From Skeletonema tropicum (lineage: Eukaryota; Bacillariophyta; Thalassiosirophyceae; Thalassiosirales; Thalassiosiraceae): a stretch of DNA of 64,000 bases. The notes under the pieces were generated by a model, which was given only the letters and a program-made list of their open reading frames with translations, did not search any database and was not told the origin of the DNA. This document shows, one piece after another, positions 1 through 33,274 of this stretch. The DNA lies in contig CM074143.1 in assembly GCA_037178625.1 (NCBI GenBank), positions 1,302,001 through 1,366,000 of the forward strand. The letters are read 5' to 3'. Both the position numbers and the translations under genes were made by a program. How positions within the stretch are numbered: the stretch's first letter is position 1; every line of letters begins with the position of its first letter.

Positions 1-782
1 GTCACCCCTCCACTACTACTACCATCACTATTCTCTTCTATGCCGCTGCAACAATTTCCCAAATGTCCGTAACGCCTGCAATGGAGAGATTTCACTTGAT
101 GCAATGAATCCGCCATGGCCACTTGAAACTCTGCTGTGATGATATCTGAGTCGATACTCGTTCCTTATCCATTGATAATGCCAACGCTAATATCCCACAT
201 GCAGCGCAAACATGATGTACCTCCAATCCTTACAGTGTTATGTACCGCATAATATTATACTCCCCCTGGCAAACACCAGACGCGACAACCAACGCTTTGC
301 ACCACAGGCGCAAACTGGGCCGAAAAGTACTCCCCCAGGATTAAGTTCACCCTTCTCTGATGACCCACGGGCTGACTACTGCATATGTACCCCATCAACA
401 GTGTCAATGTATGATGTGCCCAAAATCGGCAAAATCGATGCTGCTTATGTATGTAACGACCGATACTTCTGTCGTCTCAAAAAATATCGAACCGCCGATA
501 GCATTATCGGAATCAGCGTTGAAAACTGGTCTAGATATTACGTTATGGCGTTGTGTTATTGTCATTACTTCATGTTATGCACCCCACTACTTAGTGTACT
601 GTGTAGGAGGTGCCATGGCGGCGGCGCGGTGAGTTTTGGATATTTGGAAAAAAAATTGGTGACCGAAGGAGCTCTTACTTATCCAAGCATTAAGTAAGTA
701 GGTATGTGTCAAATCTGGTGGCTCATGAAATAGGCATTGATTGAACTTCTAATTGTCAGGGACTGTCCTTTTCTTCACAATT
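1..782. other. No supported gene
   Basis: I see no convincing protein gene here. The longest open frame (about 212-697, plus) has no recognisable domain, and its composition resembles non-coding DNA. It is the upstream flank of the tRNA locus at 783. It could hold the untranslated region of a gene lying outside the window. Confidence 0.5.
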
Positions 783-854
783 GGGGATGTGGCACAGTGG
801 TAGCGCGTCCGCTTTGCATGCGGAAAGTCCGGGGTTCGACTCCCCGCATCTCCA
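783..854 (+). tRNA. tRNA-Ala (anticodon UGC)
   Basis: This is a complete 72-nt cloverleaf. The acceptor arm GGGGATG pairs with CATCTCC and contains the G3:U70 wobble pair, the classic alanine identity element. The discriminator is A854. The D-arm GCAC/GCGC has one A-C mismatch. The anticodon stem TCCGC/GCGGA is perfect around loop TTTGCAT, giving anticodon TGC. The variable loop is 5 nt and the T-arm CGGGG/CCCCG encloses TTCGACT. There is no intron and no encoded CCA. No T-run follows the gene. The next tRNA begins 8 nt downstream, so the two are probably made as one pol III transcript. Confidence 0.97.
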
Positions 855-862
855 TCGCAATC

Positions 863-940
863 TTCGAATGGTCACGTGTTCGACTCACGTTGGGTGCTAC
901 TGTCGCACTTATAGCTCAGTGGTAGAGCGTTCGATTGCAG
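863..940 (+). tRNA. Permuted tRNA-Cys (anticodon GCA), 3' half upstream of 5' half
   Basis: The two halves are in reversed order. Positions 863-898 hold the 3' half: T38, anticodon-stem strand TCGAA, variable TGGTC, T-arm ACGTG-TTCGACT-CACGT, acceptor TGGGTGC and discriminator T73 (U73 is usual for tRNA-Cys). A 6-nt spacer ACTGTC (899-904) follows. Positions 905-940 hold the 5' half: GCACTTA, TA, D-arm GCTC-AGTGGTA-GAGC, G26, TTCGA and TTGCAG with anticodon GCA. Joined at canonical position 37/38 they give a 72-nt cloverleaf in which every stem pairs; the acceptor has two G-U pairs. The flanks form a bulge-helix-bulge: TTGC (935-938) pairs with GCAA (857-860), with 3-nt bulges AGA (939-941) and TCT (861-863). 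Cutting after the second bulge base falls exactly at 37/38. Maturation would go through a circular intermediate, as described for permuted tRNAs in Cyanidioschyzon and prasinophytes. Confidence 0.93.
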
Positions 941-944
941 AATC

Positions 945-952
945 TTTTTTTT
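945..952 (+). terminator. RNA polymerase III terminator (T8)
   Basis: Eight consecutive T residues begin 4 nt after the permuted tRNA's 5' half. This is the first T-run of four or more after the tRNA-Ala. It suits a single pol III transcript covering both tRNAs. Confidence 0.85.
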
Positions 953-1442
953 ATACGCCCCATCTCATTATTCTTTTGCATTGCAGCGGAAGGTATCATG
1001 GTGAACTATGCGTCGAAGGTACTTATTGCTTTTATGTTTTTGCTGCTGACGATTGTGAATTGTGATCTCTTCCTTCCTCGTGTTACATTGGCATTGTTCA
1101 TTGTTCTTTTCGTGTATCAGACAGCACCAATGATTTTCGGTTTATACATATATCTCTGACGACTATGCCAAGCCAAGTGACTATCAATACAACCTCAACA
1201 CCATCCCATGCCAGGATTATATTCAGATTCAGTACCTCTAGCACTCATTATCTTGTAGCACTATTCTCTTTATTTTTAGCTTATGGATGCCATAACATAT
1301 GGCCAAATAATGTAATCTATATAACCAAACAGGATGATGATGCAACAAAAGTCTAAAGATGCTGTAAATCCTTCATTGGCAGGACAAAAAAAATATCCCA
1401 TATAATGTGTATGCACGATGTTCAGAAAACCCACCAATTCTC
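953..1442. other. Intergenic, no gene seen
   Basis: This is AT-rich sequence between the pol III terminator and the 3' end of the minus-strand gene ending at 1443. The short open frames show no domain. It probably contains the 3' UTR and terminator of that gene. Confidence 0.5.
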
Positions 1443-3590
1443 TCAATGGGTACCTGACGATTCTTTCAACTCTTCATTGAGTTCAGGACAATAAATAATG
1501 CCCTTCTTTTCTCCGTCGACAGTCTGCCAGTCACGGAATCCTTTACGGAGCGCACTCTCAGTCCAATAGTTCTTGTTCCCACGGTTCATTCCCTCCTTGC
1601 AAGTCTTGAGGTAATCCAACTGGTCTCGGAGTTCTTGAGGAATGTACTTGCAGGCTTGGATGTGCTTGCTTTGGAAGCGAATGTTGGCACGGTAGAGGCC
1701 CTTGATAGACTCGGGGTAAATGACAGAGAGGTCACCCTGTTCTTCCACGTGTTTATCCTTGCAGTAACGACAGCGGAAGCCAACCTTTCCTGCATAGCGT
1801 CTTCGACGTGCAGTCTTCTTCTTGCCTTCACCGCTGAGGTCCTCGTCTTCCTTGGGAGCGATAGTGACAAACGCCTCCAAGATGTCACGACGGATGATGG
1901 CATGAGATGGATGAGTATTCTGCTCATCCTCCTCTGAATAAAGACTTGGATACGTAACCTCAGAACTGCTGGAAGGAGGTTTATTGACAGAGCCAAAGGC
2001 ACTTCCTTGCTTTCCAAATGATGGCTTCTTGCTTGCTTTTCTGGGACGGCCTCTGGTACGTTTCGCTGGAACAACACTAGCAACAGCAGCAGCAGCTCCT
2101 GCAACAGAATTCTTTTGTAATTCAGACTTGCACACAGTCTTGGTTGCCGTTTCGAGTGCTGCCACACCATCACGAGTGAATGCCGTATTTTTCATCTGCT
2201 GCTGCTGCTGAGCTCGCCTTTCACGCTTCTGTTCACGTTTCTGTTCCATCTCCAATAGCCTTTGCTGCTCATCTTCTTCTTGTAGACGAACGACAACCTT
2301 TTCACTCTTAATTTGTGCTCGTAGACTGAGTACCTCGGCCCATGCAGAAGACTTGGTGATACACGTGGTCCCAATAACAAGTGTTTCTAGAAGGGCCTCC
2401 CTAGTCATGGATGAGACAGAATTAGCGTCCATAATACCTCTTGCCACGGCCTCCTCCTTCAATACCTCCAACTGTAGACTCTTGGTCACCTTCACCTGCT
2501 GCTCCTCACCAACAAATCGAGTAGGCGTAGGGGATCTAGAGGAATGCCTCTGTCTCTTATTCTGACGTTCCATCCCTTGCAGTCGATGAAGTTTTTCCTC
2601 AAGATTGGTATTAGCTGCAGTGAGAGAGTTCACCTGTGCCTTGCGACCACTTAGGAGTTGCTTCAGATCATTAATTTCCATGAGTAGTTTGGTTTTAATG
2701 TCGTCTTCTGCTGCCTGTTCCACGTAGCTGGCGATACCATTGTGGATGTGCGTGTTATTATTGGTAGCGGTGGTAGTAGCAATGGTGGATGAAGCAGAAA
2801 GGAATGGAGCGGCTGCTACACCCTGTTGCTGCTGTACTCTATCATATGCGGTGTTATTGTAGGCACTGCGTATAGTCAGGAGGGGGAGCACCACAGTGCT
2901 AGGGGAAGTAATATCACGTATCGGCGCCGGCTTTGAAGCCGCAACCTGTTTGATGGCCGTAGAGGAGTTATCGGCGGTGCGGCGGAAAATGGGTGTTTCC
3001 AAAGCCTCCGCCCCTCCATTGACGTTGGTGGACTCCACATCACCCTCTTTTTCTAACTTGACCTGCTGCTTGGTGGTAGAATTTTCAACAGCGGCTATGC
3101 GGGAGGCAGCGGCGCCGGAGACAGCCCTAGCAGCGGCGGAACGGTTGCGGGTGACACGTGGTATCTTGATGGTCGATTTGGGCGTGACAATAGATGATGA
3201 TGCAGATGCACCCTTGATATGAGGAGAGAAGAGTGATCGGGAAGATGTGCGGGTGGTAGCAGAGCTTTTGGAGGGAGGAAGAATTTCATCATTTACAGGG
3301 TTCGGATTTGTGTAGACCGCCTCGTTCTTTGCGTCCTTCTTGTTGGGTGACATGCTGATGGCAATCAGAGTTTCCGACGCAGTTAGCTCGTCCTTTGCAG
3401 CGGTGGAACGGGTGCTGCTCATCGTTGGCTCACTATTCTGACGGCTCTCTATGTTGTAATCCGTGTTCCTATGATGTGTACACAAAATAAGCACATGGTT
3501 GGAGACCTTGCCTTTGTCTTGGCATGAGATGTGTTTCTGGTTTCTTCGACCTTCTTTCCTTCTCGTCATTGTTTGAAATTCATGATTCAT
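1443..3590 (-). CDS. Low-complexity protein with AT-hook and diatom-type Cys/His C-terminal domain
   Basis: This is an open frame of 715 codons. Translation more likely starts at the in-frame ATG at 3422 (Met57, MSSTRST), because the preceding residues look like 5' UTR. The N-terminal half is Ser/Thr/Ala-rich. Residues around 310-350 are coiled-coil-like. A segment near 375-410 (LEVLKEEAVARG) resembles a SAP-type helix pair. A basic AT-hook-like RTRGRPRK lies near 525. The last 130 residues hold a compact domain with GFRCRYC, a following His, HIQACKYIP and KNYWTESALRKGF. I recognise this arrangement from many diatom proteins of unknown function; it is probably zinc-binding. Overall this suggests a nuclear DNA- or chromatin-associated protein, but that is inference. 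Confidence 0.8.
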   Translation of the reverse strand: MNHEFQTMTRRKEGRRNQKHISCQDKGKVSNHVLILCTHHRNTDYNIESRQNSEPTMSSTRSTAAKDELTASETLIAISMSPNKKDAKNEAVYTNPNPVNDEILPPSKSSATTRTSSRSLFSPHIKGASASSSIVTPKSTIKIPRVTRNRSAAARAVSGAAASRIAAVENSTTKQQVKLEKEGDVESTNVNGGAEALETPIFRRTADNSSTAIKQVAASKPAPIRDITSPSTVVLPLLTIRSAYNNTAYDRVQQQQGVAAAPFLSASSTIATTTATNNNTHIHNGIASYVEQAAEDDIKTKLLMEINDLKQLLSGRKAQVNSLTAANTNLEEKLHRLQGMERQNKRQRHSSRSPTPTRFVGEEQQVKVTKSLQLEVLKEEAVARGIMDANSVSSMTREALLETLVIGTTCITKSSAWAEVLSLRAQIKSEKVVVRLQEEDEQQRLLEMEQKREQKRERRAQQQQQMKNTAFTRDGVAALETATKTVCKSELQKNSVAGAAAAVASVVPAKRTRGRPRKASKKPSFGKQGSAFGSVNKPPSSSSEVTYPSLYSEEDEQNTHPSHAIIRRDILEAFVTIAPKEDEDLSGEGKKKTARRRRYAGKVGFRCRYCKDKHVEEQGDLSVIYPESIKGLYRANIRFQSKHIQACKYIPQELRDQLDYLKTCKEGMNRGNKNYWTESALRKGFRDWQTVDGEKKGIIYCPELNEELKESSGTH

Positions 3591-4396
3591 TCTTATGTGG
3601 GCGAATTAAGCTCTATTAGCTTATTTGTGTCTGCAGGACGATAAATTGTGCTACTCCGAGTAGTTAATAGAGTAAGCTTAAATATGACTAAATTAAGTGC
3701 TTAATATGTATTTGACACCGGTCTTTTCAACGGATGCCGTTTGAAACGTCTGGCGCCGGTGTCAGACATTCAAATGGAGAGTGTGAGATTTGAATCAAAA
3801 CCAAGAAGAAATCTGAAGACACCGTTCGCGAACTCTTTAAGATGGGTGTCTTTTACAAAGCCGACGTCGGAATTTGTATTATTGTGTATGTACCTTCTCT
3901 CATCTCCTTCAGGGGCCATTTACATCTTCGTGCAGGAATTACTTTCTCACTTTGCCTGCAAGTAAGTAAGACTGCCAGTCTCGATTCTTACCCACATTTC
4001 TCTCTACTCAGAACTCGTTTCAAAATTGTTCCCTACGAACTTCTTTCCAAGTAAACTCCCTCCAAGCCAACTCATGGTTGCAGTGCGTTCGTCACTCGAA
4101 TAAGTGAGCTGTCCGTCCCCCCAAGCCAAGAGCAACCGGATATAGAGCATCTTTTATGTTGTTGATGCGAACTACTCCTATTAACGAGTGTGGAAGGATT
4201 TGTAGATTTCTCTCTCACTCTAGAAAAGCTCGAACTTAAAAACATGATGTGGTACTTGTGTGTACCTATAAGTATCTGAAAAGTGCAGTAGCATACTTAT
4301 TATTTGTTTGCCATACTTTTACTTAATCAGATTAGTTAAATCCATATAATCCGACACAAGTAGCTAAGTAGACAAGGCAAGCTCAGCCTCTAGATC
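3591..4396. other. Intergenic, no supported gene
   Basis: This is the region between two genes on the minus strand. Short plus-strand frames at 3741-4054 have no recognisable domain and no gene-like context. The 5' flank of the upstream gene and the 3' flank of the TLDc gene lie here. Confidence 0.45.
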
Positions 4397-6412
4397 TCAA
4401 AAGTCCAATGTGAAACCCCAAACTTCCAAATCTACAACATCAAAATAGCCTTCCTCACATAGAGGGTCATTTTCAAATGTAGAGCAATGACCAGTCGTAC
4501 CCCTCCGAAAGTCATCCTCAATGCACAATCCAAAGTCTCCATCATCACCACCTCCACCAAACGCCACAGCTCGTTTGTAAGCATCACATAGTTGAATATA
4601 CCGGTTGGCTCCAGACCATCTGTAAATCACAACCTCATTATCATCCTCCGACGTTGATGCACCGGAAGTCATTGCTTCTCCACTGCGAGGGAACCGAAAC
4701 AAACAAGCTTGAGCACTCCCATAAAAACCATCTGCTTGTCTATTCTTGTGCCGTGCTTCCCATCGCGTATCCGCATATCCACCAAACAATCGCCCCGCTG
4801 TGGATTTTACCACAAGTACTGTTCGGTTGTGGCCTTCTACCATCCGTAAGAAGGTTTCAAAAGAGTCTCCATCACGTGAGAGACTGTACAGTCTTTTCCA
4901 TTTGCAATAGTTGAGTGATTGGGGTAATGCACCCGATTCCAATAGTGCCTTCATTTGGGGCGGCAGCAATATGAAAGGGTTGGCAACCGAGTTCTCATCC
5001 CTGCGCGGTTCCGGAACAATTTTGATATCCACATGTGTTGGATCTGTACTACCATCTGACAGTGATAGGTGGTCTTCGGGAATTTCCACATCGACTGACA
5101 TTCCTTTCCCCGTCATTGTAATCTTTGGTGTTCGTACGGTCATGTAGTCTCCTTCCTCGTACCCTTCCTCATCGTCTGAATCATCTAGGTCGCGACTGGG
5201 CATCATTTCCACAATATTCCCAGCGGAATCAATCCTAGCCACGCCGGAATAATCAGACGCATCATCATTTAAGGCTTGTGCGTAGTTTCCACCAAAGCCA
5301 CAGAGAAGGAGTGAATTGCTTTTACTGGGACTTTTTTCCGGCTCTTCTGATTCCTCTTCTTGACTCGGACAACAACTTCCATTCATATAAACCAAAGACG
5401 ATGTCGCAACCTCATCCCCTGCAATGGCACTCGAGGCAACTGCCGATTGATGTTTGGTGGGAGACCCAGGAGGTGAGACGGCATATCCCCGATCACGTCG
5501 TTTTTCTGCCTCCAACTCACGTTGTTTGCGACCCTCCTCGACCAATTTTCGCCGTTGTTCTTCCACCTGCCGTTCTAATTCAAGTCTGTGCAGTTTTTCA
5601 CGTTGGTTTTGGAGCCAGTTGGATGCTATGGAAAATATTCCCCCACCTTGATTCTTGTTGTTGCTGTTGGTATGATGGTGCCTGTTAGTATTGTTGTGGC
5701 TACCGTCCAAATGACCTCGGTTGGGCGACCGACCATGCCCTCTCCCATATCTATTCGCATAGGCACTCACCCGATGATGCTGATAATGGAACATTTCTTC
5801 CTCAGTGGGGTTATCATTGCTATAATACGGCGGGTCTTCGTAACCCTCATCATCATCGTAATAGGAGGAGCCATCGTCATCTTCGTAGCCGAAATATCCC
5901 TCATCCTCCTCTGACGTGTCGTCCCTACCCCATGCATCGGCTAGTCGCTTTGCTTCGGCAGCGGTGTATTTCCCCCGTGCAATGCCGCGATTTCCGCTGG
6001 ATGGAGGGGCGGTTGGACGTGGGTTTTTCTGTTTCGGAGTGTTATCATTATTCTGGTGTTTGTTGTTACTTTTGGCATCGGCAGCCGCTCGTGAACGTGC
6101 CGCCACACTCATCTTTCCCCGAGGCGGCGTCGACGGATGAGGTGAATTCTGTGGCTGCCTCTTTTTCTTGTGCTGCTGCTGCTGTTGAGGAGATGCAGCA
6201 GCAGCCAACACTTGAGCCGTTTCAATATTCATTTTCTCTCTGACGGACAATGGGGATTTCGCATGCTGTAACTCCTCTTCTTTTCGTTTTTCGTCACGTT
6301 CCGCTTCCTTGCTGGCGGCTTTGGTGACGGGACCGTAGAGGTCTTCATCGGCCCGCTCGTGTTGAGGGCTCATGGGTGGGGGTGGAGGGGCTAGTATTTC
6401 GGAACTCATCAT
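4397..6412 (-). CDS. TLDc-domain protein
   Basis: This is a 671-residue single-exon protein starting MMSSEIL at 6412. The first 330 residues are low complexity: Pro-rich, Gln/Asn/His-rich, acidic DDDGSSYYDDDEG runs, and a charged coiled-coil-like segment near 270-310. The C-terminal 190 residues are a recognisable TLDc domain: LPQSLNYCKWKRLYSLSRDG, then SFETFLRMV, VLVVKSTAGRLFGGYAD, ACLFRF, the IQLC region, GLCIEDDF and a closing EVWGF. TLDc proteins such as OXR1 and TBC1D24 act in oxidative-stress protection, and some bind the V-ATPase; the role here is inferred only from that family. The low-complexity N-terminus has no recognisable partner domain such as LysM or TBC. Confidence 0.88.
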   Translation of the reverse strand: MMSSEILAPPPPPMSPQHERADEDLYGPVTKAASKEAERDEKRKEEELQHAKSPLSVREKMNIETAQVLAAAASPQQQQQHKKKRQPQNSPHPSTPPRGKMSVAARSRAAADAKSNNKHQNNDNTPKQKNPRPTAPPSSGNRGIARGKYTAAEAKRLADAWGRDDTSEEDEGYFGYEDDDGSSYYDDDEGYEDPPYYSNDNPTEEEMFHYQHHRVSAYANRYGRGHGRSPNRGHLDGSHNNTNRHHHTNSNNKNQGGGIFSIASNWLQNQREKLHRLELERQVEEQRRKLVEEGRKQRELEAEKRRDRGYAVSPPGSPTKHQSAVASSAIAGDEVATSSLVYMNGSCCPSQEEESEEPEKSPSKSNSLLLCGFGGNYAQALNDDASDYSGVARIDSAGNIVEMMPSRDLDDSDDEEGYEEGDYMTVRTPKITMTGKGMSVDVEIPEDHLSLSDGSTDPTHVDIKIVPEPRRDENSVANPFILLPPQMKALLESGALPQSLNYCKWKRLYSLSRDGDSFETFLRMVEGHNRTVLVVKSTAGRLFGGYADTRWEARHKNRQADGFYGSAQACLFRFPRSGEAMTSGASTSEDDNEVVIYRWSGANRYIQLCDAYKRAVAFGGGGDDGDFGLCIEDDFRRGTTGHCSTFENDPLCEEGYFDVVDLEVWGFTLDF

Positions 6413-21733: not shown

Positions 21734-23026
21734 CTATGATTCTTCATTTCTATCGAAGTATGGGGTTATTCTCCTAATGTTAATTCGTTCACTGATTGAA
21801 CCCTTTTGTATCCTGACAGTTCCATTCGTGTAGACTTCCGTAACAGCATAAGGTCCTTTGTTCCGGTCGTCGGCTTTAGGAAGCCGCTCACCATTAATGT
21901 CCTTAATGATGAGACACTTACTACCAATCTTATAATCATACGGTAGACGTCTCGAGTTTTCTCGGGCGTTGTCACTGTCCACTTGCATCTGTCGTCGACG
22001 GCCGATGTCAGCCCAGTCTGCCACATAAGGGATGTCGAATAACATGTCCCTACCGAATATAGCAGCACCAGGTGACGACTTGAGCACTGTGTGATGGGTC
22101 GCTCGGATTGCCCACGCTGTGTTGGTGATCCAATCGTCTATTTGAGCGTCAGTTACCTCATCGAGGTCATTGAGACCTGAGGTGCGCAACATGCTGTTGA
22201 CAACACCGTGCACACGCTCTAGAATAGCGTTTGCTTGAGGGTTTCTGCTGGAGGTCGGCTTTCTACCAATGGTGTAAGTTTTGCATAACTCGGCGAGGTG
22301 AAGTTTGAATTCACCTCCATTATCACACGTCACGTATCGTGGACGAGGATAACGACTCAACCAGCATTTGTTAAAGAGACGCGATATTGTCTCAGATGAT
22401 TTGTCGATGATCTCTGATTTTATCATTTTGTCTTCTTTCTTGTCGTATTTGTCGACGATTTTAGTTGGCAATTCGACGATCTCAAACCATCCCGTGGCCA
22501 GATCGATCATAGTCATGCACATGAAATCCATGCAAGTACCGGCTTTGTCCTCAATCTCAATTGGTCCAATGAGATCGACGCAGACGGTATGCCATGGTCT
22601 AACGATTGCATCTTTCGGCGGAAGATGGCCATATTTTCGCTTGCGCGACTTGCCCTTCTGACATTTATCGCAGGTTTTGACCAGCCGTTTTATTTGAGCA
22701 CTCATTCCGTGCCAATACATTACTGCGGAAATTGTTTCCATCATTCTGTCTCTACCGGGGTGTTGAAGGTACGTGTGATACCAAGCCAGCACTTTCTCCT
22801 GCAAGGAGTCCGGTATGACGAGTCTGGGTTGTCTAGTGTCTCTGCCCTTAACGAGGACTTCAACATCATCGTAGATCATAAGTTGGAACTGCGAGTCACG
22901 CTGAGGTTTCTCAAAGTGCTTTTTCCACTTTGCATCAGCACGCTGTTCGGCGGCAATCTCACTAATCGTGACAGGGTAGACCATGTCTTCCTGTTGTTCT
23001 ACTTGTGAGAAGAGATGCGTCATCAC
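21734..23026 (-). CDS. Gypsy integrase (C-terminal part of a split pol)
   Basis: This is the downstream half of pol. The frame continues upstream of Met to 23074 (KNDYDPEDS), where the inserted element begins, so it is not a free-standing gene. An HHCC zinc-binding region runs from HTYLQHPGRDRM to CDKCQKGK. The DDE core has VCVDLIGPI, YVTCDNGGEF and NPQANAILERVHG. A C-terminal basic region (GPYAVTEVYTNGTVRIQ) resembles the SH3-like integrase tail. The catalytic triad appears intact, but expression as part of pol is blocked by the insertion. Confidence 0.93.
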   Translation of the reverse strand: MMTHLFSQVEQQEDMVYPVTISEIAAEQRADAKWKKHFEKPQRDSQFQLMIYDDVEVLVKGRDTRQPRLVIPDSLQEKVLAWYHTYLQHPGRDRMMETISAVMYWHGMSAQIKRLVKTCDKCQKGKSRKRKYGHLPPKDAIVRPWHTVCVDLIGPIEIEDKAGTCMDFMCMTMIDLATGWFEIVELPTKIVDKYDKKEDKMIKSEIIDKSSETISRLFNKCWLSRYPRPRYVTCDNGGEFKLHLAELCKTYTIGRKPTSSRNPQANAILERVHGVVNSMLRTSGLNDLDEVTDAQIDDWITNTAWAIRATHHTVLKSSPGAAIFGRDMLFDIPYVADWADIGRRRQMQVDSDNARENSRRLPYDYKIGSKCLIIKDINGERLPKADDRNKGPYAVTEVYTNGTVRIQKGSISERINIRRITPYFDRNEES

Positions 23027-23432
23027 TTGTTTAGGTTGTGGTAATGACTGTGAGTCTTCCGGGTCATAGTCATTTTTCGGCCCTCGGGGCCCCGGGTCGA
23101 AACAAGCGCAGTGAAGTGTCGATAACGGGGCCGGGAGGTGCCCAACCCCTTATGGTCACAAATTCTCCATTTTTTTCCAAACTTTTTTCTACAGGGATCT
23201 TGGTAGGAATCAGTATAGTAGCTGTTTAGTGAGAAAGTTTACCTGCTGGACACGTAGAGGCTCTGTAGACCCATACCGCTGTAGGATTTGTACTTGTTCC
23301 TACGTAGAAAGCAAGAAGTACCTGGCTTAAAGGCGCTTTTTAGAAATTGATTGGCTATATCTGTCGAGGATACCATCATTTGCAGAAAGAAATACAGGTA
23401 CATTGTCATTATAGGTGACATGTTTCTTCATC

Positions 23433-24280
23433 ACGAGAAATATTCTCCCTTTGTTGTATCCTTTATTGATTGTCGTTAATTTGTCATGTTGCCGCGATTG
23501 ATAATAAATTTGTCTTGAAGACAAATTTATTTTCCATGCAAGTTGTGAATATCGCATTGTATCGTCCACTAGGCAAAATAATCGCGTGGCAATTGGTATT
23601 CTTTCTTCGTTTCTTTCCATTTTTTGTTTGGGCTGGTTATGATTTCGGTGATGCGGTTCGTCAGGTCCTCTCTATTCTTTATTAAAGTACCACTCACTGC
23701 CTTTTGATAAGTTGTTTTCGTCATTTCATCAAGCTTTCTTTTGTTGTATCTTGTCTTGGTTTCTTCTGCCTTGCCGTCAAGGTACTTGACCCATTTGTCC
23801 CGCTTCTTGAAGAGTTTGCAGAGTTGGCCATCTTGGTTCGTCTTGCAATTGTGTAACCATTCTACAGACACGCTCGGCCCTGTCCAATAAATGGCACTAT
23901 CCGTCGGGTGCATAACATTTTTGGAACCAAGTGTTTTGCCCCTGCTGGTAGCAACGTATCCTGTCCCAAGGCACTGGCTTCTCTCCCAGAGCTCATCTGA
24001 CGGATCTATCACCATGCGATTCCATCGATCGTCCTTGCCGAACCCGGCCTCCATGCCCTGGCAGCGGTGTATTGTGATTGCGAATGCAATTTGCAGGGGC
24101 ATGAACGTGGCAGTACAGCATCCCTTGTTGCAGATGTGAGTGTAGGGTGGTATTGGCACGTGCTGAGTGGAGTGGTGGAGTGGAGTGATTGCAAATTTGT
24201 GTAAAGAGGGATGATTGATCAGTGCCATGCTATATTTCGAATTCAAGAATACATTTCTACATTCACTCACCGTTGGATTC
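23433..24280 (-). repeat. Direct repeat, copy 1 (848 bp, helicase C-terminal region)
   Basis: The stretch from ACGAGAAATATTCTCCC to CACCGTTGGATTC recurs at 24616-25462 with a few substitutions. It covers the last 230 codons of the helicase fragment plus 3' flank. Confidence 0.9.
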
Positions 24281-24561
24281 TTTTTGTCCCAGGGTTCAAT
24301 GCCTTGCCGGGGTTTGAAGTATGGGAAATCAACGACTATATACTTTGGGAGGGATTCAACACCATTTGTGTTTGGTCCTACGGAGTGCTGCTCGTCATAA
24401 ACGATGTCAATCACCTTCCCAATCGCTCCAACGTACAGGCCAGAGTTCGGATCAATGTTCGCTGTCTCCAGGCACACGTGCACACCAACGGAAACGTCTA
24501 AAGTGTACAACATCTTTTTGCCGAAGAAATGCGACTGGTACACAGTGGGATTGCCAACCAT
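23569..24561 (-). pseudogene. PIF1-like helicase C-terminal fragment, longer copy
   Basis: The 330-codon frame extends upstream without a start (LSVPVARLRCQFKSN precedes Met), so it is truncated at its N-terminus. Motifs include YIVVDFPYFKP, FMPLQIAFAITIHRCQGMEA (helicase motif V/VI region with Gln-Gly) and GTGYVATSRGKTLGS (the Arg-finger region of PIF1-type enzymes). A basic tail follows. No Walker A or B segment remains. It is probably the remains of a Helitron-type replicase-helicase. Confidence 0.8.
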
Positions 24562-24615
24562 GTTGCTCTTGAATTGGCATCTGAGCCGTGCTACCGGTAC
24601 TGACAGCCGTTTCTG

Positions 24616-25462
24616 ACGAGAAATATTCTCCCTTTGTTGTATCCTCTATTGATTGTCGTTAATTTGTCATGTTGCTCGATTGAAAATAAATTTGTCTTGA
24701 AGACAAATTTATTTTCCATGCAAGTTGTGAATATTGCATTGTATCGTCCACTAGGCAAAATAATCGCGTGGCAATTGGTATTCTTTCTTCGCTTCTTTCC
24801 ATTTTTTGTTTGGGTTGGTTATGATTTCGGTGATGCGGTTTGTCAGGTCCTCTCTATTCTTTATTAAAGTACCACTCACTGCCTTTTGGTAAGTCGTTTT
24901 CGTCATTTTGTCGAGCTTTCTTTTGTTGTATCTTGTCTTGGTTTCTTCTGCCTTGCCGTCAAGGTACTTGACCCATTTGTCCCGCTTCTTGAAGAGTTTG
25001 CAGAGTTGGCCATCTTGGTTCGTCTTGCAATTGTGTAACCATTCTACAGACACGCTCGGCCCTGTCCAATAAATCGCACTATCCGTCGGGTGCATAACAT
25101 TTTTGGAACCAAGTGTTTTGCCCCTGCTGGTAGCAACGTATCCTGTCCCAAGGCACTGGCTTCTCTCCCAGAGCTCATCTGACGGATCTATCACCATGCG
25201 ATTCCATCGATCGTCCTTGCCGAACCCGGCCTCCATGCCCTGGCAGCGGTGTATTGTGATTGCGAATGCAATTTGCAGGGGCATGAACGTGGCAGTACAG
25301 CATCCTTTGTTGCAGATGTGAGTGTAGGGTGGTATTGGCACGTGCTGAGTGGAGTGGTGGAGTGGAGTGATTACAAATTTGTGTAAAGAGGGATGATTGA
25401 TCAGTGCCATGCTATATTTCGAATTCAAGAATACATTTCTACATTCACTCACCGTTGGATTC
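24616..25462 (-). repeat. Direct repeat, copy 2
   Basis: This is the 847-bp counterpart of 23433-24280. Beyond AATCCAACG it departs into the unrelated gene fragment at 25449-27123, so the junction lies inside a short shared sequence. Confidence 0.9.
24751..25452 (-). pseudogene. PIF1-like helicase C-terminal fragment, shorter copy
   Basis: At 233 codons it repeats the C-terminal part of the longer fragment (ATFMPLQIAFAITIHRCQG, GTGYVATSRGKTLGS). The upstream half is replaced by a different sequence. It begins MSECRNVF at a GTG codon, not an ATG, so it is unlikely to be translated alone. Confidence 0.8.
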
Positions 25463-27123
25463 CCTTTTCCGACAGCTCTCCCAACATAGATCCAATAGTT
25501 CCAGACGCTTTTGTGTTCTGTGGAATTTCTCCAACTCCAACTGGCCGAGCTGCATTGCCATTATTGCTACGAAATACACCAGCATCGTCTGCTTCCAAGG
25601 GGGCGTTATCAACATTACCAACACCCATATTGGTGCCATCATTATCACGTTCTCCTGACAGTCTAGCAACCGAAGTAGCATTACGACACGGATAATCCTT
25701 CACGGTAGAACCAGAAGACTCATGAAACAGGCGGTCGAGACAGCTGCGCGGAAGTCTACTGGTAGACGGAGAATCATATAAATGATCGCGAATGGTTTGG
25801 CGGCCCACAAGACTGCGATCTTCTGAGCAGCGGCGATATGCGCGAACAGTAGCAGGTTGTTCCCCAGCATGATACAGCAACGCCGGAAGATTAGTTGGGT
25901 CAACTGCTGACTCCTCATCAGAAGGAGTAGACGCTGGTATGTCCGTTTCAGACGGATGATGAGTATTCACTGGAGTTGCGGCACTACCATTGCTCTCTTT
26001 AGGGCACTGCTGTTCGATGTCATAATTTTTTGATGATTGCTTTAACTTTAACAAAGAACTCGCCTGCTCGACAACGTCATAATCATTATTATTATCGCAT
26101 GATCTCCATGATTTGCATGATGCATCAAATGCTTCTGCCTGCTCAAAGTTAGTGCATCTAACATGAGCGGGAGAGATGCAATCGCCTTGCTTTGTCTGCA
26201 GAAGAGGTATATCATGCTCGTTCTTGTTGTTGTTGTTGTCGACAACATCTTTTTTGTTGCCCGCTGTCACACCGCCATTGCTGAAGTAAATGAAAATAGG
26301 GATAAGTAAGGATAAGTGATTAGTTTTTGACATGACGACATTCATATGGGAGAAACAATACCAGTTCAAGTTTAAAATAAATTTGCATACATCACAATTT
26401 TATTTTTGGCATGAACTCTATGGAAGGTTAATACCACACAGCAAAAAGCGACTTAAATGTAGATGAATGAGCGATCCTTTCTATGTTCGTACGATCACTC
26501 TACGTAATGTTTTACGCAGTGTTAAGCGTTTCGCTTATACATGAAATTCTGAATCACATAAGACGCTTCTTCCAATTTCAGCTCATCTTAACAATACACT
26601 TTCGGACTTACCCATTAGACAATACGCTGGAACACTCTGGAGCAGCCAACGACTGCAAGTTATGACTGTTATTTATACAACGGCCATAATTCATTATTCC
26701 AGCTTTGCTTTCTGCATCCGATTTGTAGAACTGAGCCGAGCTTGAACCGTTACAGGTAACGTTGCGATTGGAAATGACATTGTAAGCGATAGATAATTGT
26801 TCCTGTCTGGTGCGATATAGATCCATTACGCATCCTAGCTCAGACAATACATGTTTTAGTTCACGCATATTGCAAGAGGAAAGAACAAGCCTCAGAAGAG
26901 TATGTGGATCAGTAGAGTGTTCGAAGCATGGATTGCGCGATGATTGTAAGTCTACTATTTCGCGGAAGATATGATCGCCTACACGCACTTTCGGCCATTG
27001 GACTTTGTAAATTATTTGACGAATAGACAGAAATGAGCATCTAACACCCTTCCGAGCGCTCTTGCTGTTCACGTCGGAAGAGGATGGTTGCTGTTGCTGC
27101 GCTTTCTCTCTTGAAGTGTGCAT
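25449..27123 (-). CDS. Two-exon gene of unknown function inside the Helentron-like element
   Basis: Exon 1 runs 27123 to 26612 (MHTSREKAQQQQPSSSDVNS...ECSSVLSNG). A GTAAGT donor and TTTACTTCAG acceptor define intron 26611-26281. Exon 2 runs 26280 to 25449, in matching phase. The predicted product of about 445 residues is Ser/Asn-rich. Exon 1 contains SIRQIIYKVQWPKVRVGDHI and a Cys-containing helical stretch. I recognise no family. The 3' end stops at the junction with helicase repeat 2 (LGELSEKGIQR), so it is probably a host gene fragment captured by the element and truncated. Confidence 0.5.
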
Positions 27124-28393
27124 ATTTTATACGGTCAATTTTGTTCGTGGTTTGGTTATGCCGGTCCGTAATGGTCACATATTTAAGATATTGATTTGCG
27201 TGCGAGGAATGTCATACGCAAGCCACTCATTATTATTTATGCACTCTTCTAATTGCATGTGGTGTTCCGTAGCATGATAGTCGATGAGTGGCTGCGCGGA
27301 AAAGTCACGGATGGTGGCGACATGTTCTTCCTGCCAGCAGAGAAGCTGACACGTTGAAGTTAGGAGAGGAACAAGTGACGTCATATATTTGAGAATATGT
27401 AAAACGCGATCGGTATAAAGTACTGTCAAACGCGATCGGTAAATTATTTCGTCAAAAAGCCAACTCGGTTTTTGCATGATCGATGATCGTGCAGAAAAAG
27501 AGAAAAAGATGCCACCACAATGGCCTACAATGGCACCCCTAGTATGGCCGCCTATCTCAGTCCATGAGTATATTTCATAAGGTATCGATGGCCCATCCCT
27601 TAAACGACATTATGGCGATTTTTTCGCAGCAGTGTGGCGTTTCGGCTGCTGTAGGGGTGGAGATAATATCATTGCAATCCACTTCATTGAGATTTGAAAT
27701 GAAAACAACCACCTTCCCTGCACCCATCGAAGATGATAAACATCTATAGGCACTACCCCTCCGCTACCCATCGCCGATGATAATATGAAGTGAGATTCTG
27801 GTTGCTCGGAATGACCATTAAAGCCCCCCCACACCTCCAAAATACCAAGGACACAAGATGTGCACAAAATTGCATAAATAATTTGACACTCTAACACAAC
27901 AATAAGCCTGTAGACGGCGGATCGAGCGGCTCTAAAGACCGCAACTCATCAACATTATTATATATAAGAAGTGTCGGCTATTTATTGTCCATAATATTGC
28001 AATAGGCTGGATAAAAATAGCAACATCATAGACAGAAATGACATTTATGTAGCATGTATTAGTCATTTATTAATGCGGTGTAGACAGTTGTAATAATAAA
28101 ACCCTGCGGCTGAATAGTTGCAAAGGGTGTTGTCTGCGATATAGTTCACTGGATATTACTATTGGTAGGGTTTGTGCAACGTGGTGGCTATGAGAGTAGC
28201 GGCTATGATGTTAGATACTGACTGTCGAACGAAAAAACATGCATGCATGCAGTTGTGCTCGGAAAGCGCGCTGCACTTTTTTGTTAGCTGCTATCAAAAT
28301 CTTATGCATCTACGATGCAATTTTGATTGGAACGGCTCTAAGTAAGTAAGTGAGTATGTACTATAAAACGTTTCTGTTATAAGAATGTTATTA

Positions 28394-28550
28394 AACAAGC
28401 ATTGCAGAGCAACTTTATAGACGGATACATTGCAAAAAAAAATCCAACACGAAATCCACAGAATAATTTTGTCATCATGACACATTTATGTTACAACAAC
28501 AAGCATTGCAGAGCAAATTTATAGACGGGTACATTGCACAAAAAAAAAAC
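28394..28550. repeat. Two direct copies of an about 50-bp subterminal repeat
   Basis: ACAAGCATTGCAGAGCAACT at about 28396 recurs as ACAAGCATTGCAGAGCAAAT at about 28499. Each is followed by TTTATAGACGG and an A-rich tract. They lie just inside the right inverted repeat of the Helentron-like element. Confidence 0.8.
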
Positions 28551-30890
28551 AGGCCCCGAGGGCCCGCGCCGCACTACACACCATACACAACATGCAGTCA
28601 CAAATCGCCGCGCGCACCATTTCATATAATGGCTGAAAAGGGAAACCATCGCGTTCCACTTCTCATGACGGTTGGTTTTCCAGTTGCCGTCATCATCCAC
28701 TTCGTCGTCTTTGTGGGGATTTGTCTTTGGACAGTAGTCAAGACGTGATATAGCGTCGGCTACTGTGTTATCAATACCTTTGATGTACCTGATGTCAGGT
28801 CCAAACTCATTCAAGATGACCATCCAACGGCGTGTCCGATCAGAAGATTGGCCGATGTTGTCTCTTGTGAGGTTGATATGATCAGTGTAGATGATAATCT
28901 TTTGACCCAAGAGCATGCTTCGGAATTCTTGAAGTAATTCGACGATAGAGAGGAGCTCTAGGTCCGTGACTGAGTAATTTCGTTGCGCCGTAGTCAGCTT
29001 CCTGCTGAAAAAGGCTAAAGGCCTATTTTTCTGTGTAATTACGCCCCCAAGCTGACGCTTGGACGCATCTGTGTAAATTACGAAAGGCTCATCGTCTTCA
29101 TATGACGGATATGCTAGGATTACGTCCCGTGCAATAATTTTCTTGATCTCTTCAAACGCTTCTTGGTGAATGCTGTCCCAATGCCAAGGCTTAGGCGCTT
29201 TACGTTGCGTCCCATCTTTCTTTTTCTTTTTTGAAAGCTTGGTAGATCCACATTCCGCTACGAGATCAGTGAGCGGAGCAAGAAGATCCGTACGTCGATG
29301 CCAAAGGTCTCGATAGTACTGAATTATTCCGAGAATGCGTTGTAATTCTTTGACGTTTTTCGGCGGCTGAAGAGCCAGAATTGCGTTGACTTTGCTCACT
29401 TGAGGTTTAATTCCCTCCCGTGACAGAGTACACCCAAGATACTCGACCTCTTCGGCAGCAAAGTTACATTTGGCAGCGTTAACTTGCAGACCTGCGTCAC
29501 GCAATCTTTGAAGAACTGTATTTAGTTTCTCCAGATGGTCCTCGAAGGTACCAGCGGTGATGAGCAACAAATCATCAATGTATGCTCTTACATATTCCAA
29601 ATCGTGGAATAGACCGTTCATTTTCGATTGAAAGATGTCTGGACTACAGGCGACCCCCATAGGTAGACGTTTGTAGCGATAGAGACCCCATGGAAACACG
29701 ATAGTGCAAATATCCATGGTTGCTGGGTCCAACCTAAGGTGATAGTATCCCATATTAAGGTCAATCGCTGTGGCCCATTGAAAGTCCTCGATCTCCTGCA
29801 ACGTCTGCGCAATCTTCGGCAACGGATAAGGCTTGCGAATCAGGCGTGCATTGAGAGCGCGGAAGTCCGTAAGGAAGCGGACTGTACCATTTACTTTTGG
29901 TATGACGAATGAGGGGGCTCCCCATTCGCTTTGCTCAATTGGTTCTAAGACACCAATGTCTATGAGTCTTTTTAGTTCTTTCTTGATTGTATCTCTGTGA
30001 ATTCGAGGAACGGGAAAGGCCCGACCTCGGAATGGCTTTGCCCCTGGCTTCAGCTCAAAATTCACGAATTCTTTGTCCCATGTCCCCAATTTGCCTTCAA
30101 ACATTGACTCATGGCGAGTCAATACTTTGAGGAGAGCTTCTTTCTGGCTATTGGTGAGGTTTGGGCAGTTTTCTTCGACCACTTTAGGCAGGTCTGCCTT
30201 TTCGTACTTGGCGTCTAATATCTTGACGACTCTTTCTGTTGCCTGTTTGGTTGAGGATGGTTCCATTGCCTCATTGTAGGTGTTGAAAAGATCGCGTCTA
30301 GATTGTAGCTCTTCGTTCGACTTCATTGGTGTCTGGATTCCATCGAGTGTTAATACTCGGTTTTCGAAATCCAAGAGTGCATTCCAACAGGCCAACGTCT
30401 CTATCCCTACAATGAGGTCGTACGTTGGGTTATCATTTACAGAAACAATCTTTACATCTGCTTTGCAGGAAAAAATCTTGCTCTGAGAGAGCTCGGGAAA
30501 GAGCAAGTCCATTTTGGCAACGTCGTTGGTGATGAAGTCTCCATTGGAGGTTGTCCATCGTGACGGTTGGCTCTTTCGTACCGCTTCAAATTTAAGGAAT
30601 TCAGAGCGGGTGAGGAAAGCTATGTCTCCATCACTCCCAGTGTCCAATAAGATTCGAAAGGGCCGAGTCCTCTTGTTAAGTCTCCTTTTAAATACGGGGC
30701 TGCCTAAGACGACGGTCTTGAGGCCCATCCCTTTCCTTACAGTAGCTTTAAGAGTAGCGTGATGAGCTTTTCTCCCACTGTAGTCAATGTTACAAGCGCC
30801 GTTTATCGGCTCACAATCATGGATATGCTTAAAGAGTTTCTTTCTAGGTTTAAGTTCTTCTAGTTGCTCGTATTCGGATTCAGTTTGCAT
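28491..30890 (-). CDS. Gypsy protease-reverse transcriptase-RNase H (N-terminal part of split pol)
   Basis: The ATG at 30890 begins MQTESEYEQLEEL. Aspartic protease motif LLDTGSDGD is near residue 85. RT begins near 270 (KPFRGRAFPVPRIHRDTIKK), has WGAPSFVIPK, the YIDD box in YVRAYIDDLLLIT, and ends with the thumb and connection. RNase H shows FVIYTDASKRQLGG, YSVTDLELLSIVELL and IIYTDHINL, and closes near DAISRLDYCP. Authentic pol ends at 28620 (SHYMK). The last about 43 codons are read from the inserted element. Catalytic residues look intact, but integrase is cut off by 5.5 kb. Confidence 0.95.
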   Translation of the reverse strand: MQTESEYEQLEELKPRKKLFKHIHDCEPINGACNIDYSGRKAHHATLKATVRKGMGLKTVVLGSPVFKRRLNKRTRPFRILLDTGSDGDIAFLTRSEFLKFEAVRKSQPSRWTTSNGDFITNDVAKMDLLFPELSQSKIFSCKADVKIVSVNDNPTYDLIVGIETLACWNALLDFENRVLTLDGIQTPMKSNEELQSRRDLFNTYNEAMEPSSTKQATERVVKILDAKYEKADLPKVVEENCPNLTNSQKEALLKVLTRHESMFEGKLGTWDKEFVNFELKPGAKPFRGRAFPVPRIHRDTIKKELKRLIDIGVLEPIEQSEWGAPSFVIPKVNGTVRFLTDFRALNARLIRKPYPLPKIAQTLQEIEDFQWATAIDLNMGYYHLRLDPATMDICTIVFPWGLYRYKRLPMGVACSPDIFQSKMNGLFHDLEYVRAYIDDLLLITAGTFEDHLEKLNTVLQRLRDAGLQVNAAKCNFAAEEVEYLGCTLSREGIKPQVSKVNAILALQPPKNVKELQRILGIIQYYRDLWHRRTDLLAPLTDLVAECGSTKLSKKKKKDGTQRKAPKPWHWDSIHQEAFEEIKKIIARDVILAYPSYEDDEPFVIYTDASKRQLGGVITQKNRPLAFFSRKLTTAQRNYSVTDLELLSIVELLQEFRSMLLGQKIIIYTDHINLTRDNIGQSSDRTRRWMVILNEFGPDIRYIKGIDNTVADAISRLDYCPKTNPHKDDEVDDDGNWKTNRHEKWNAMVSLFSHYMKWCARRFVTACCVWCVVRRGPSGPVFFLCNVPVYKFALQCLLL

Positions 30891-30917
30891 GATTGTGTTG
30901 GCGCTGCGCCAATCATC

Positions 30918-32511
30918 CTATTCGCTGTCGGAATCTTCTTCCTCTTCGCTGTAGCTCATGCTACGCTTCTTCTTCTTGGCACTACCCTTCTGAAGGGCAT
31001 GCACTGACTTTCTCAATTTCTTGTTATCGGCTTTCATGCTGGCTAGCATATCTACTACTTCTTTGTTGCTGTAGTTGTCACGACCGCGCTGACGTTTCAA
31101 GCTGCCATCTTCATTGTACTTTTGACAGTCAGCGGTATTGTGGTTGTGATGAGCGCCTCCAAACTTCTTGCAAAGTTTGCAATGTTTCGTTTCGCTGTCC
31201 GCTTGGTTTTGGTTTCCTTCACCATTCTTGCGGTTTCCACGTTGGTTGTTGCGGTTACTGGAATTCTTACCAGCACCACCACCTCCTCCTCCCCCCCCTG
31301 GGGTTGAGAAGCTTTCTGCTCGGTGCGCACTTGATCGACAAGGGGCTGAAGTTCATTCGCCAAAAGTTTGACGTCAAAACGTACAGTGTTGTTTGCATTA
31401 TGCGATTTGAACAGAGTCTGCACCTTTTTGGGCATGCAGTCGACCAGGATGTCACATAATTCCTTCTGGGTGAAAGGCTTGTTCCCCCATGGGACCTGAT
31501 CGTTATTGATATACATTGGATTATCCTTCGTGCTCGGCAACAAGGGAATGTTACGATTAATATCTTCCAGGAAGCCCACAAAGTCCTTCACTGGGATTTC
31601 GCCGTTGGGAGGAAAAAGAGCATGATTAGTCATCTTTTTCTTTTGGATTTCGGCACGGCCGTAACCCCCCTGATGCACAGCATGGCTGCGAATGGCGTTC
31701 ATGATGCCCTCAAAGGAAAGTCCCCGAGGAGCGTCAATCTCATGTGTTACTTCTTGCATTTCGTAGCGGAACTTGACGTCTGGATCGTTGAAGGTGACGT
31801 CGTCGACCCTGTCATCATACATCTCGATGCGACCTACTGGTTCGTCTTTGGTATTGTCCCACTGGAAAGCTACCTTTTTCAATTCATATGATGTAATTTC
31901 ATGCGTTGTAGGTTTAAGTAGGGTAGTTTCCACCGTGTCGGTGAAGGTTCCATGGAGATCCCCGATGAAGTTGATGTACATTGTGCGCATCTTTTCTACC
32001 CTGTCAAGAATACTGTCCTTGGTGCTTCTAGCGCCTCGGATTGTTGTTTGACTTCTTTTTTTGTTTTCTTGATGTCCTCTTCAGAACCACCAAACCTTTT
32101 GAGATTTTCGAGCTTGGCTCTTTGTTTGTTGTAGTTTTGTTGATGCGCGTCCCTGACGCTGACCAAATCTTCAAGCTGCGCAATGAGCTTGGTATCATAA
32201 TAGGCGTTGATGCATTCTGCTTGTTTTTGGATGAAGTCGTCGTAGGCTCTGCTGACGAGCGAGCTGACTTGTTTTTTTACACCTCCTATTTTGATTTCGA
32301 ACCGGTTGCCGGCAGTCGCTGGGCGAGCTTTCTTTGGGTCCCTGGAGAAACTGAACGTTACACGTTCTTCGTTCAGGAACCAGCCGCGTTCAACTTTAAG
32401 TTTTGGATTTGCAGTCTTGTGCTGATTGATTTGAGAGTACGTGTTCGCCGTGAACCGATCTCCTACCATCCAATTATTGCTGTCGTTGATTACTCTGAGT
32501 AATCTCGACAT
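30918..32511 (-). pseudogene. Gypsy gag, two frameshifts
   Basis: Three overlapping frames make up one gag: 32511-31996 (MSRLLRVINDSNNWMVGDR, coiled-coil end), 31990-about 31300 (MRTMYINFIGDLHG, capsid-like) and about 31290-30918. The last frame holds a zinc knuckle, HCKLCKKFGGAHHNHNTADC, then a basic and acidic tail (SYSEEEEDSDSE). The shifts fall near 32035 and in the G-run at about 31293-31302. The latter is homopolymeric, so a sequencing error or a programmed shift is possible. Confidence 0.85.
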
Positions 32512-32591
32512 CGTCTTCTCTTTATTTTAGAGGAATCTGCTACTTTCACTGCCTGTTCCTTGGGAACAGGACCAAGTAATAATATTATTAG

Positions 32592-32637
32592 TGTCAGCGG
32601 CGGTAGCTGATACGGTGAGTTGAATGAATAACTTGGT
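32592..32637 (-). repeat. 5' LTR of the Gypsy element, part 1
   Basis: The first 46 bp of the LTR (TGTCAGCGGCGG...ACTTGGT). The sequence resumes at 38939. The break carries a shared GGT, where the DIRS-type element recombined in. Confidence 0.93.
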
Positions 32638-32852
32638 GGTTGCACCACTTCTGTGATGCGCTGGATTGCTTCACTGCTCCCTCGGGAGGTATTTTTGTAT
32701 TCTAGTTGGTACAACAGGAAATTGGCAGAAAAGGGAAACTTTACTAGGAAAGTCACCCCCCTTTTCAGCTCCCAATGGCTGGGCTGATCCTATCGGGAAT
32801 TCGCTGTCCTTGCGGCAGTAGTTCTCCTAGCGGTCGCCAGCCATTGGTCTCC
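32638..32852. repeat. DIRS repeat A1 (terminal)
   Basis: Begins GGTTGCACCACTTCTG and ends CCATTGGTCTCC. It is identical over its length by eye to A2. Confidence 0.92.
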
Positions 32853-32865
32853 GGGCGGGAGGGTG

Positions 32866-33020
32866 GGTTTTATTAAGAATCTACAATCTATTTACTCTTG
32901 CGTTGATTTCAATTGCAATGCTTTTGCTGCACAAATTAATGGTCGAATTCATTTCATGGTCGATTTTTTTCAAGTTTCCGAGTGGTGAGGTGGCAGTTGC
33001 CGCCCCTACGCATCACAGAC
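32866..33020. repeat. DIRS repeat B1 (internal)
   Basis: Begins GGTTTTATTAAGAATC and ends CGCATCACAGAC. It matches B2 at 38784-38938. Confidence 0.92.
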
Positions 33021-33023
33021 GGT

Positions 33024-33238
33024 GGTTGCACCACTTCTGTGATGCGCTGGATTGCTTCACTGCTCCCTCGGGAGGTATTTTTGTATTCTAGTTGGTACAA
33101 CAGGAAATTGGCAGAAAAGGGAAACTTTACTAGGAAAGTCACCCCCCTTTTCAGCTCCCAATGGCTGGGCTGATCCTATCGGGAATTCGCTGTCCTTGCG
33201 GCAGTAGTTCTCCTAGCGGTCGCCAGCCATTGGTCTCC
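33024..33238. repeat. DIRS repeat A2 (internal)
   Basis: The second A copy follows B1 after GGT. B1-GGT-A2 preserves the expected junction of the circularised element. Confidence 0.92.
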
Positions 33239-33274
33239 ATTGGCCAAAGAGAAAGGGATTGGGTGGGTGGGCAC

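Follow-up and report, generated by a model that had tools for sequence, protein, structure and literature searches.

The window analysed here is a 64-kb stretch of DNA, corresponding to positions 1302001-1366000 of contig C17 in a genome of 78.4 Mb and 125 contigs. Close to its start, on the forward strand, lies a conventional tRNA-Ala(TGC) gene (783-854; Rfam RF00005, 64.3 bits; delimited as 782-856 by ARAGORN), which is the sole tRNA that ARAGORN and Rfam call in the native window and which is proposed below to be the first cistron of a longer transcript. The 3' half of a tRNA-Cys(GCA) starts 8 nt behind this gene (863-898, tRNA positions 38-73) and is followed on the same strand by a spacer of 6 nt (899-904) and by the 5' half of the same tRNA (905-940, positions 1-37), which carries the anticodon GCA at 937-939. 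Both halves were delimited with a permuted covariance model and with ARAGORN run on the joined halves. Ahead of the 3' half, the leader GCAATC (857-862) is composed of GCAA (857-860), the putative 5' strand of a 4-bp helix of the bulge-helix-bulge (BHB) type, and of TC (861-862), the first two bases of a 3-nt bulge (861-863), with a first cut predicted after 862. At the other end, the sequence suggests a second 3-nt bulge, AGA (939-941), with a cut predicted after 940, that is, after tRNA position 37. A run of eight T (945-952), resembling a Pol III-type terminator, comes next on the same strand, no earlier stretch of at least four T being present after the tRNA-Ala.

When the two halves are joined in the normal order, ARAGORN reports a tRNA-Cys(gca) in which every stem is paired (acceptor 7/7, including two G-U pairs; D 4/4; anticodon 5/5; T 5/5), with T at position 73, the anticodon GCA and the join at 37/38. 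The locus has therefore the order and cloverleaf expected of a type II permuted gene, with the 3' half before the 5' half on one strand, a short spacer between them and a complete cloverleaf after joining. At the level of sequence, the segment 863-940 is confirmed as a circularly permuted tRNA-Cys(GCA) gene of type II (37/38). A preliminary description of this DNA had proposed such a gene, and its coordinates for the two halves and the 6-nt spacer turned out to be exact, while its statements on the pairing of all four stems, on U73 and on the 37/38 join agree with the ARAGORN model of the joined halves. It did not mention the tRNA-Ala 8 nt upstream, and the four other copies of the gene reported below were beyond what was visible to it.

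The permuted layout was represented by a covariance model built from 13 non-Cys tRNAs of the same genome (isotypes Ala, Arg, Asn, Met, Thr, Trp, Lys and Ile), which were permuted by script; no Cys tRNA was among them. On the 64-kb window this search, of the kind advised in the preliminary description, matched 863-940 over its full length, at 69.1 bits (E 1.7e-23, with rough calibration), and the sole other match at E up to 10 was half of the tRNA-Ala gene, with 22.6 bits. Besides the window, the model was applied to 23 loci (of 28) and to 39 sources. The 23 loci yielded 41 matches at E up to 1, among which seven rows at 69.1-71.6 bits represent the five Cys copies of the genome (the C13 pair being counted twice, with two loci overlapping), and the remaining 34 reached at most 30.1 bits. 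In the 39 sources, seven matches passed 1e-8, namely the five Cys copies and two others, L048 (51.8 bits) and L051 (45.1 bits). These two were rejected as permuted genes, being ordinary tandem tRNA pairs in which a normal tRNA-Ile or tRNA-Trp precedes the start of an apparent tRNA-Tyr(GTA), a reading made by eye. As a separate observation, the first members of these pairs, tRNA-Ile(AAT) and tRNA-Trp, are each closely trailed by what looks, again by eye, like the 5' part of an intron-containing tRNA-Tyr(GTA). Head-to-tail pairs of ordinary tRNAs are the false-positive class of the permuted model, and the Cys loci score well above them. Because a Cys-free model gives the locus 69.1 bits and four further copies exist in the genome, the arrangement is not a product of chance, and the circular permutation originally proposed for this tRNA-Cys is supported.

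A BLAST search of the genome with the Ala-Cys unit returned ten places, which are the five Cys copies and five tRNA-Ala genes without Cys. The Ala-Cys arrangement is found in the window copy (C17:1302781), in a copy at C17:2134128 with 99% identity to the window unit, and in one at C13:1066306 with 95% identity, whereas the copies at C13:1066137, in tandem with the C13:1066306 copy, and at C12:2448613 are Cys-only. The two C17 copies are located within an inverted duplication that covers all 8,901 bases compared (99.7% identity over 8,219 alignment columns and 97.7% over 690) and that corresponds either to a recent duplication or to an assembly artefact. This duplication spans window positions 1-4400 and C17:2130688-2139589, has a length of at least 8.9 kb and lies about 10 kb from the contig end. 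Since the C17 pair is part of a near-identical duplication, conservation was counted over four non-twin copies.

Over these four copies, all 72 mature positions of the tRNA-Cys are invariant (36/36 in each half), as are the four bases of the GCAA leader. Invariance extends to one of the two leader bulge bases, to one of the six spacer columns, to none of the three trailer columns (+1 to +3, which include the last base of the second bulge), and to 3/40 columns further upstream and 2/40 further downstream. The variable spacer keeps a length of 6 nt in all five copies. Among the upstream flanks there is one close pair (95%), whose members share the tRNA-Ala. The conserved parts are those that a permuted tRNA needs, that is, the mature body and the helix strand presenting the splice sites; gene conversion could be an alternative cause of the identical halves. 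Within the 9-10 kb surrounding the two C17 copies and the C12 copy, a search for exact strings found a single occurrence of the core of each half, so that no intact outer half accompanies them, while outer halves are present at the C13 tandem.

With respect to the splicing motif, GCAA at 857-860 can pair with TTGC at 935-938, which leaves the two 3-nt bulges 861-863 and 939-941. The GCAA/TTGC helix and the first bulge are visible in the fold of 855-946, but the second bulge of the window copy lacks a flanking outer helix, meaning that the motif takes the relaxed hBH form and not that of a full BHB. The bulge-helix-bulge announced in the preliminary description is thus sustained as regards the helix and the first bulge, and has to be replaced by the relaxed form as regards the outer helix. 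The GCAA helix with its 3-nt bulge closes in cis in the precursor folds of all five copies. For the first C13 copy, the predicted structure also places two second-bulge bases in pairs with the leader. The acceptor stem is missing from the minimum-energy fold of both C17 copies, including that of the window, and forms in the folds of the three copies with other spacers. Fold z-scores across the set of five are modest (-0.9 to -2.2). Overall, these folds point to a BHB-type motif at 37/38 with a predicted second bulge.

In a permuted tRNA gene the B box is placed ahead of the A box. In this regard, three of the five Cys copies, the window copy included, lie 8 nt behind a complete tRNA-Ala(TGC), and in all three, four or more consecutive T first occur 90-91 nt behind the tRNA-Ala, past the Cys 5' half. 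The eight tRNA-Ala(TGC) genes found are without exception the first member of a pair: in three cases the second member is the permuted tRNA-Cys, and in the other five it is a tRNA-Leu(CAA) located 4 nt behind, with the first such T run at or just past its end. These pairs are distributed over contigs C9, C13, C17 and C19, and in none of them do four or more consecutive T occur until the second tRNA is complete. The second C13 copy and the C12 copy have no tRNA-Ala directly upstream and present the TATA-like motif TTATA at -35 and -49; the Ala-linked copies present no TATA-like element within the 60 bp upstream, where the tRNA-Ala lies. The earliest stretch of at least four T lies at +5 to +7 past the 5' half in each of the four non-twin copies (consisting of four T alone in two of them), so that a T run lies downstream of the 5' half and none between the halves. 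We infer that the tRNA-Ala promoter serves both the tRNA-Ala and the permuted tRNA-Cys. Given the two copies devoid of an upstream tRNA-Ala, this promoter cannot be the whole story.

The preliminary description had also called for a search for a conventional tRNA-Cys gene. A pattern describing an ordinary gene (GGTA in the D-loop, T or C before TGCA, and an intron of up to about 30 nt) matched the genome 18 times, versus 16 times for the same pattern read backwards. Eight of the 18 matches are the known tRNA-Ala(TGC) genes, and the pattern does therefore pick up ordinary tRNAs in this genome; at the loci of the ten others, ARAGORN found no tRNA. A stricter pattern gave five matches versus two backwards, all of them among those ten. 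A BLAST search with the joined mature tRNA-Cys at E up to 10 produced ten rows, all corresponding to halves of the five copies. In a whole-genome search for the tRNA family, 63 of 2517 candidates were scored, for which reason this search cannot show the absence of tRNA-Cys; 40 stretches chosen from its list contained 42 tRNAs, none of them Cys. In short, no ordinary tRNA-Cys was found by the patterns and BLAST, which are blind to a gene with another D-loop or a diverged sequence, and also to an intron of over about 30 nt combined with diverged halves.

The sole tRNA-Cys reading in conventional order was obtained at the C13 tandem (L095, c[1281,1438]), where ARAGORN, with introns of 0-200 nt allowed, reported a tRNA-Cys(gca) whose intron, at position 37, measures 86 nt. 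This reading takes its 5' half from the first copy and its 3' half from the second. The search for a conventional gene found no ordinary one, with the qualification that this locus can be read as an intron-containing tRNA-Cys. This intron form is doubted because the 86-nt stretch harbours T runs of 4, 4 and 5 together with the TATA-like element of the second copy. The stretches downstream of the two C13 copies are similar to each other (32/39, E 5e-06). The tandem resembles the intermediate of the duplication model put forward for the origin of permuted genes (PMC3978253), and the similarity of its downstream flanks is also consistent with a permuted unit having been duplicated in tandem later on.

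It could be argued from the ARAGORN reading that the C13 locus alone represents a true gene, of the conventional intron-containing type, and that the other permuted units are broken leftovers of tandem arrays. Apart from the T runs in the would-be intron, this view is countered by the similar flanks after the C13 copies, which are expected from duplication of a permuted unit even if the other phase is still compatible with them. In addition, the two C17 copies and the C12 copy, which have no outer halves, retain the 72/72 positions and the GCAA leader despite unrelated flanks, something not expected of decaying leftovers, and we consider this explanation very unlikely. A layout like that of the window might also result from chance, or from two neighbouring ordinary tRNAs contributing the 3' half of one and the 5' half of the next, and the scores attained in the permuted model by L048 and L051 illustrate how far ordinary head-to-tail pairs can go. 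Such an origin is scarcely credible for the Cys loci, where the exact half cores are single within 9-10 kb at C17 and C12, where the acceptor and anticodon stems pair fully between the halves, and which number five.

Another view is that the halves are expressed and then joined in trans, as in a split tRNA, or act as tRNA-half RNAs; indeed, the sequence would be compatible with joining between transcripts of the five copies. This is very improbable when it is considered that in every copy the halves lie 6 nt apart in permuted order, that the GCAA helix closes in cis in all five folds, and that the pattern and BLAST searches found no other tRNA-Cys that could serve translation. The reading retained here, and held to be highly likely, is that the locus belongs to a set of five nuclear permuted tRNA-Cys(GCA) genes of type II (37/38), which together are probably the sole source of cytosolic tRNA-Cys, and that its product would be processed via a circle.

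In the pathway proposed for the permuted gene of the window, in which every RNA step is a prediction, RNA polymerase III would start at the tRNA-Ala(TGC) and run to the T run at 945-952, giving one transcript with both tRNA-Ala and permuted tRNA-Cys. Release of the tRNA-Ala 3' end by tRNase Z would leave an 8-nt leader that retains GCAA, which in turn would pair with U32-U33-G34-C35 of the anticodon loop. Cuts by the splicing endonuclease after 862 and after 940 would follow, and a ligase, possibly the RtcB encoded in the genome, would join position 37 to 38 and generate a circle. Finally, RNase P and tRNase Z would remove the 6-nt spacer, with CCA being added afterwards. As to the enzymes, the tRNA_int_endo domain occurs in two proteins encoded by the genome, scoring 67.5 and 30.8 bits, and there is a single RtcB ligase (561.9 bits), whose best match among solved structures is an RtcB homologue; the search for the Sen54 domain (PF12928) gave no match in the genome, nor did it give any in the controls. 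A more far-reaching version, towards which we lean only slightly, holds that all cytosolic tRNA-Cys derives from permuted genes, so that every Cys codon would depend on circularisation, and that most copies are transcribed as second cistron behind a tRNA-Ala promoter, which would solve the box-order problem.

Silicon transporters are mainly diatom proteins. The corresponding family (PF03842) has nine matches at seven places of the genome (best 818.5 bits), versus one match in the control, which stayed below the cut-off, and the genome is therefore very probably that of a diatom, in line with the diatom-like genome suspected from the beginning. At C18:254355-255802 a silicon transporter match appears in three pieces, two of which have an in-frame TGA, perhaps reflecting introns or a pseudogene. 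The chlorophyll-binding family PF00504 has 128 matches in the genome. One of these proteins was compared with solved structures and matched first five long LHCI chains of the entry 9vfj (up to 137.2 bits), the next best being a fucoxanthin chlorophyll a/c protein (101.7 bits). This antenna-protein evidence is compatible with a diatom without being decisive, and is weaker than that of the silicon transporters. Thirty-three of the chlorophyll-binding matches have an identical score (124 bits, 3.8e-34), with 13 on C6, 12 on C13 and others on C16 and further contigs, which perhaps indicates a large and young expansion of antenna genes. Elsewhere in the window, the minus strand of 21734-36564 carries retroelement genes, with matches to an integrase zinc-binding domain (PF17921) and to a reverse transcriptase with RNase H (PF00078, PF17917); two ORFs in 33275-36564 have no Pfam match and look by eye like those of a tyrosine-recombinase element.

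A review of permuted tRNAs counts 34 such genes in six algae and one archaeon (PMC3978253), and the same kinds of host are listed in a second one (PMC4033280). The former describes the pathway as shown biochemically in Cyanidioschyzon merolae and green algae, comprising the BHB cut, ligation into a circle and opening at the acceptor stem. Its Table 1 includes type II (37/38) permuted tRNA-Cys(GCA) genes in the prasinophytes Ostreococcus lucimarinus, O. tauri and Micromonas pusilla, which share with the present gene the isotype, the order, the 37/38 join and the hBH motif, a motif that the review gives for green algae; in O. lucimarinus an extra 5' half is found beside the permuted tRNA-Cys (PMC3978253). 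The comparison covered the published features of these genes. The spacers of these green algal genes measure 26, 38 and 12 nt, respectively, versus 6 nt here; the diatom differs also in having five copies, three of which stand behind a tRNA-Ala.

The genes of C. merolae (Soma et al. 2007, via PMC3978253) have in common with the one described here the order of the halves and the downstream T run; a splicing-dependent circular intermediate was shown there and is predicted here. The TATA-like element present upstream of most permuted genes of that alga may have a counterpart in the TTATA of the two copies without tRNA-Ala. The genes of C. merolae differ in that several junction positions are used and in that Cys is not among the isotypes of the 11 permuted genes. 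In the nucleomorph of Bigelowiella natans, type II permuted tRNA-Ser genes have spacers of 5 nt (PMC3978253), about as short as those found here, the differences being the compartment, a nucleomorph and not a nucleus, and the isotype, Ser and not Cys. A 2025 preprint on Auxenochlorella (PMC12633428) adds another green alga, in which the tRNAscan-SE set was likewise incomplete until the permuted genes were found; in the part of its text drawn upon here, only C. merolae and prasinophytes are named as earlier cases.

The kind of gene reported here, a type II permuted tRNA gene, is thus known, and it is the lineage that looks new, no permuted tRNA from a diatom or another stramenopile having been found in the part of the literature that was covered. 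As far as seen, that literature describes neither the linkage to tRNA-Ala nor the presence of several copies, nor a probable absence of an ordinary gene. Exact-pattern scans for the permuted tRNA-Cys in viral contigs and an exact-pattern scan for its 3' half in prokaryote genomes found nothing.

Software for finding tRNAs that lacks a permuted mode could miss tRNA-Cys altogether in such a genome, or report the intron reading of the C13 tandem alone. The five copies constitute a natural experiment in which the leader and the halves are constrained, the spacers vary freely and an upstream tRNA is present in some cases and absent in others; one member of the set, the C13 tandem, looks like an intermediate of the duplication model. 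The published hosts of permuted tRNAs, to the extent that the cited sources cover them, are one red alga, a few green algae, a nucleomorph of green origin and one archaeon. The diatom case would place permuted tRNA genes in the stramenopiles, and since isotype and junction are the same as in the prasinophytes, it makes the choice between transfer and convergence a testable one.
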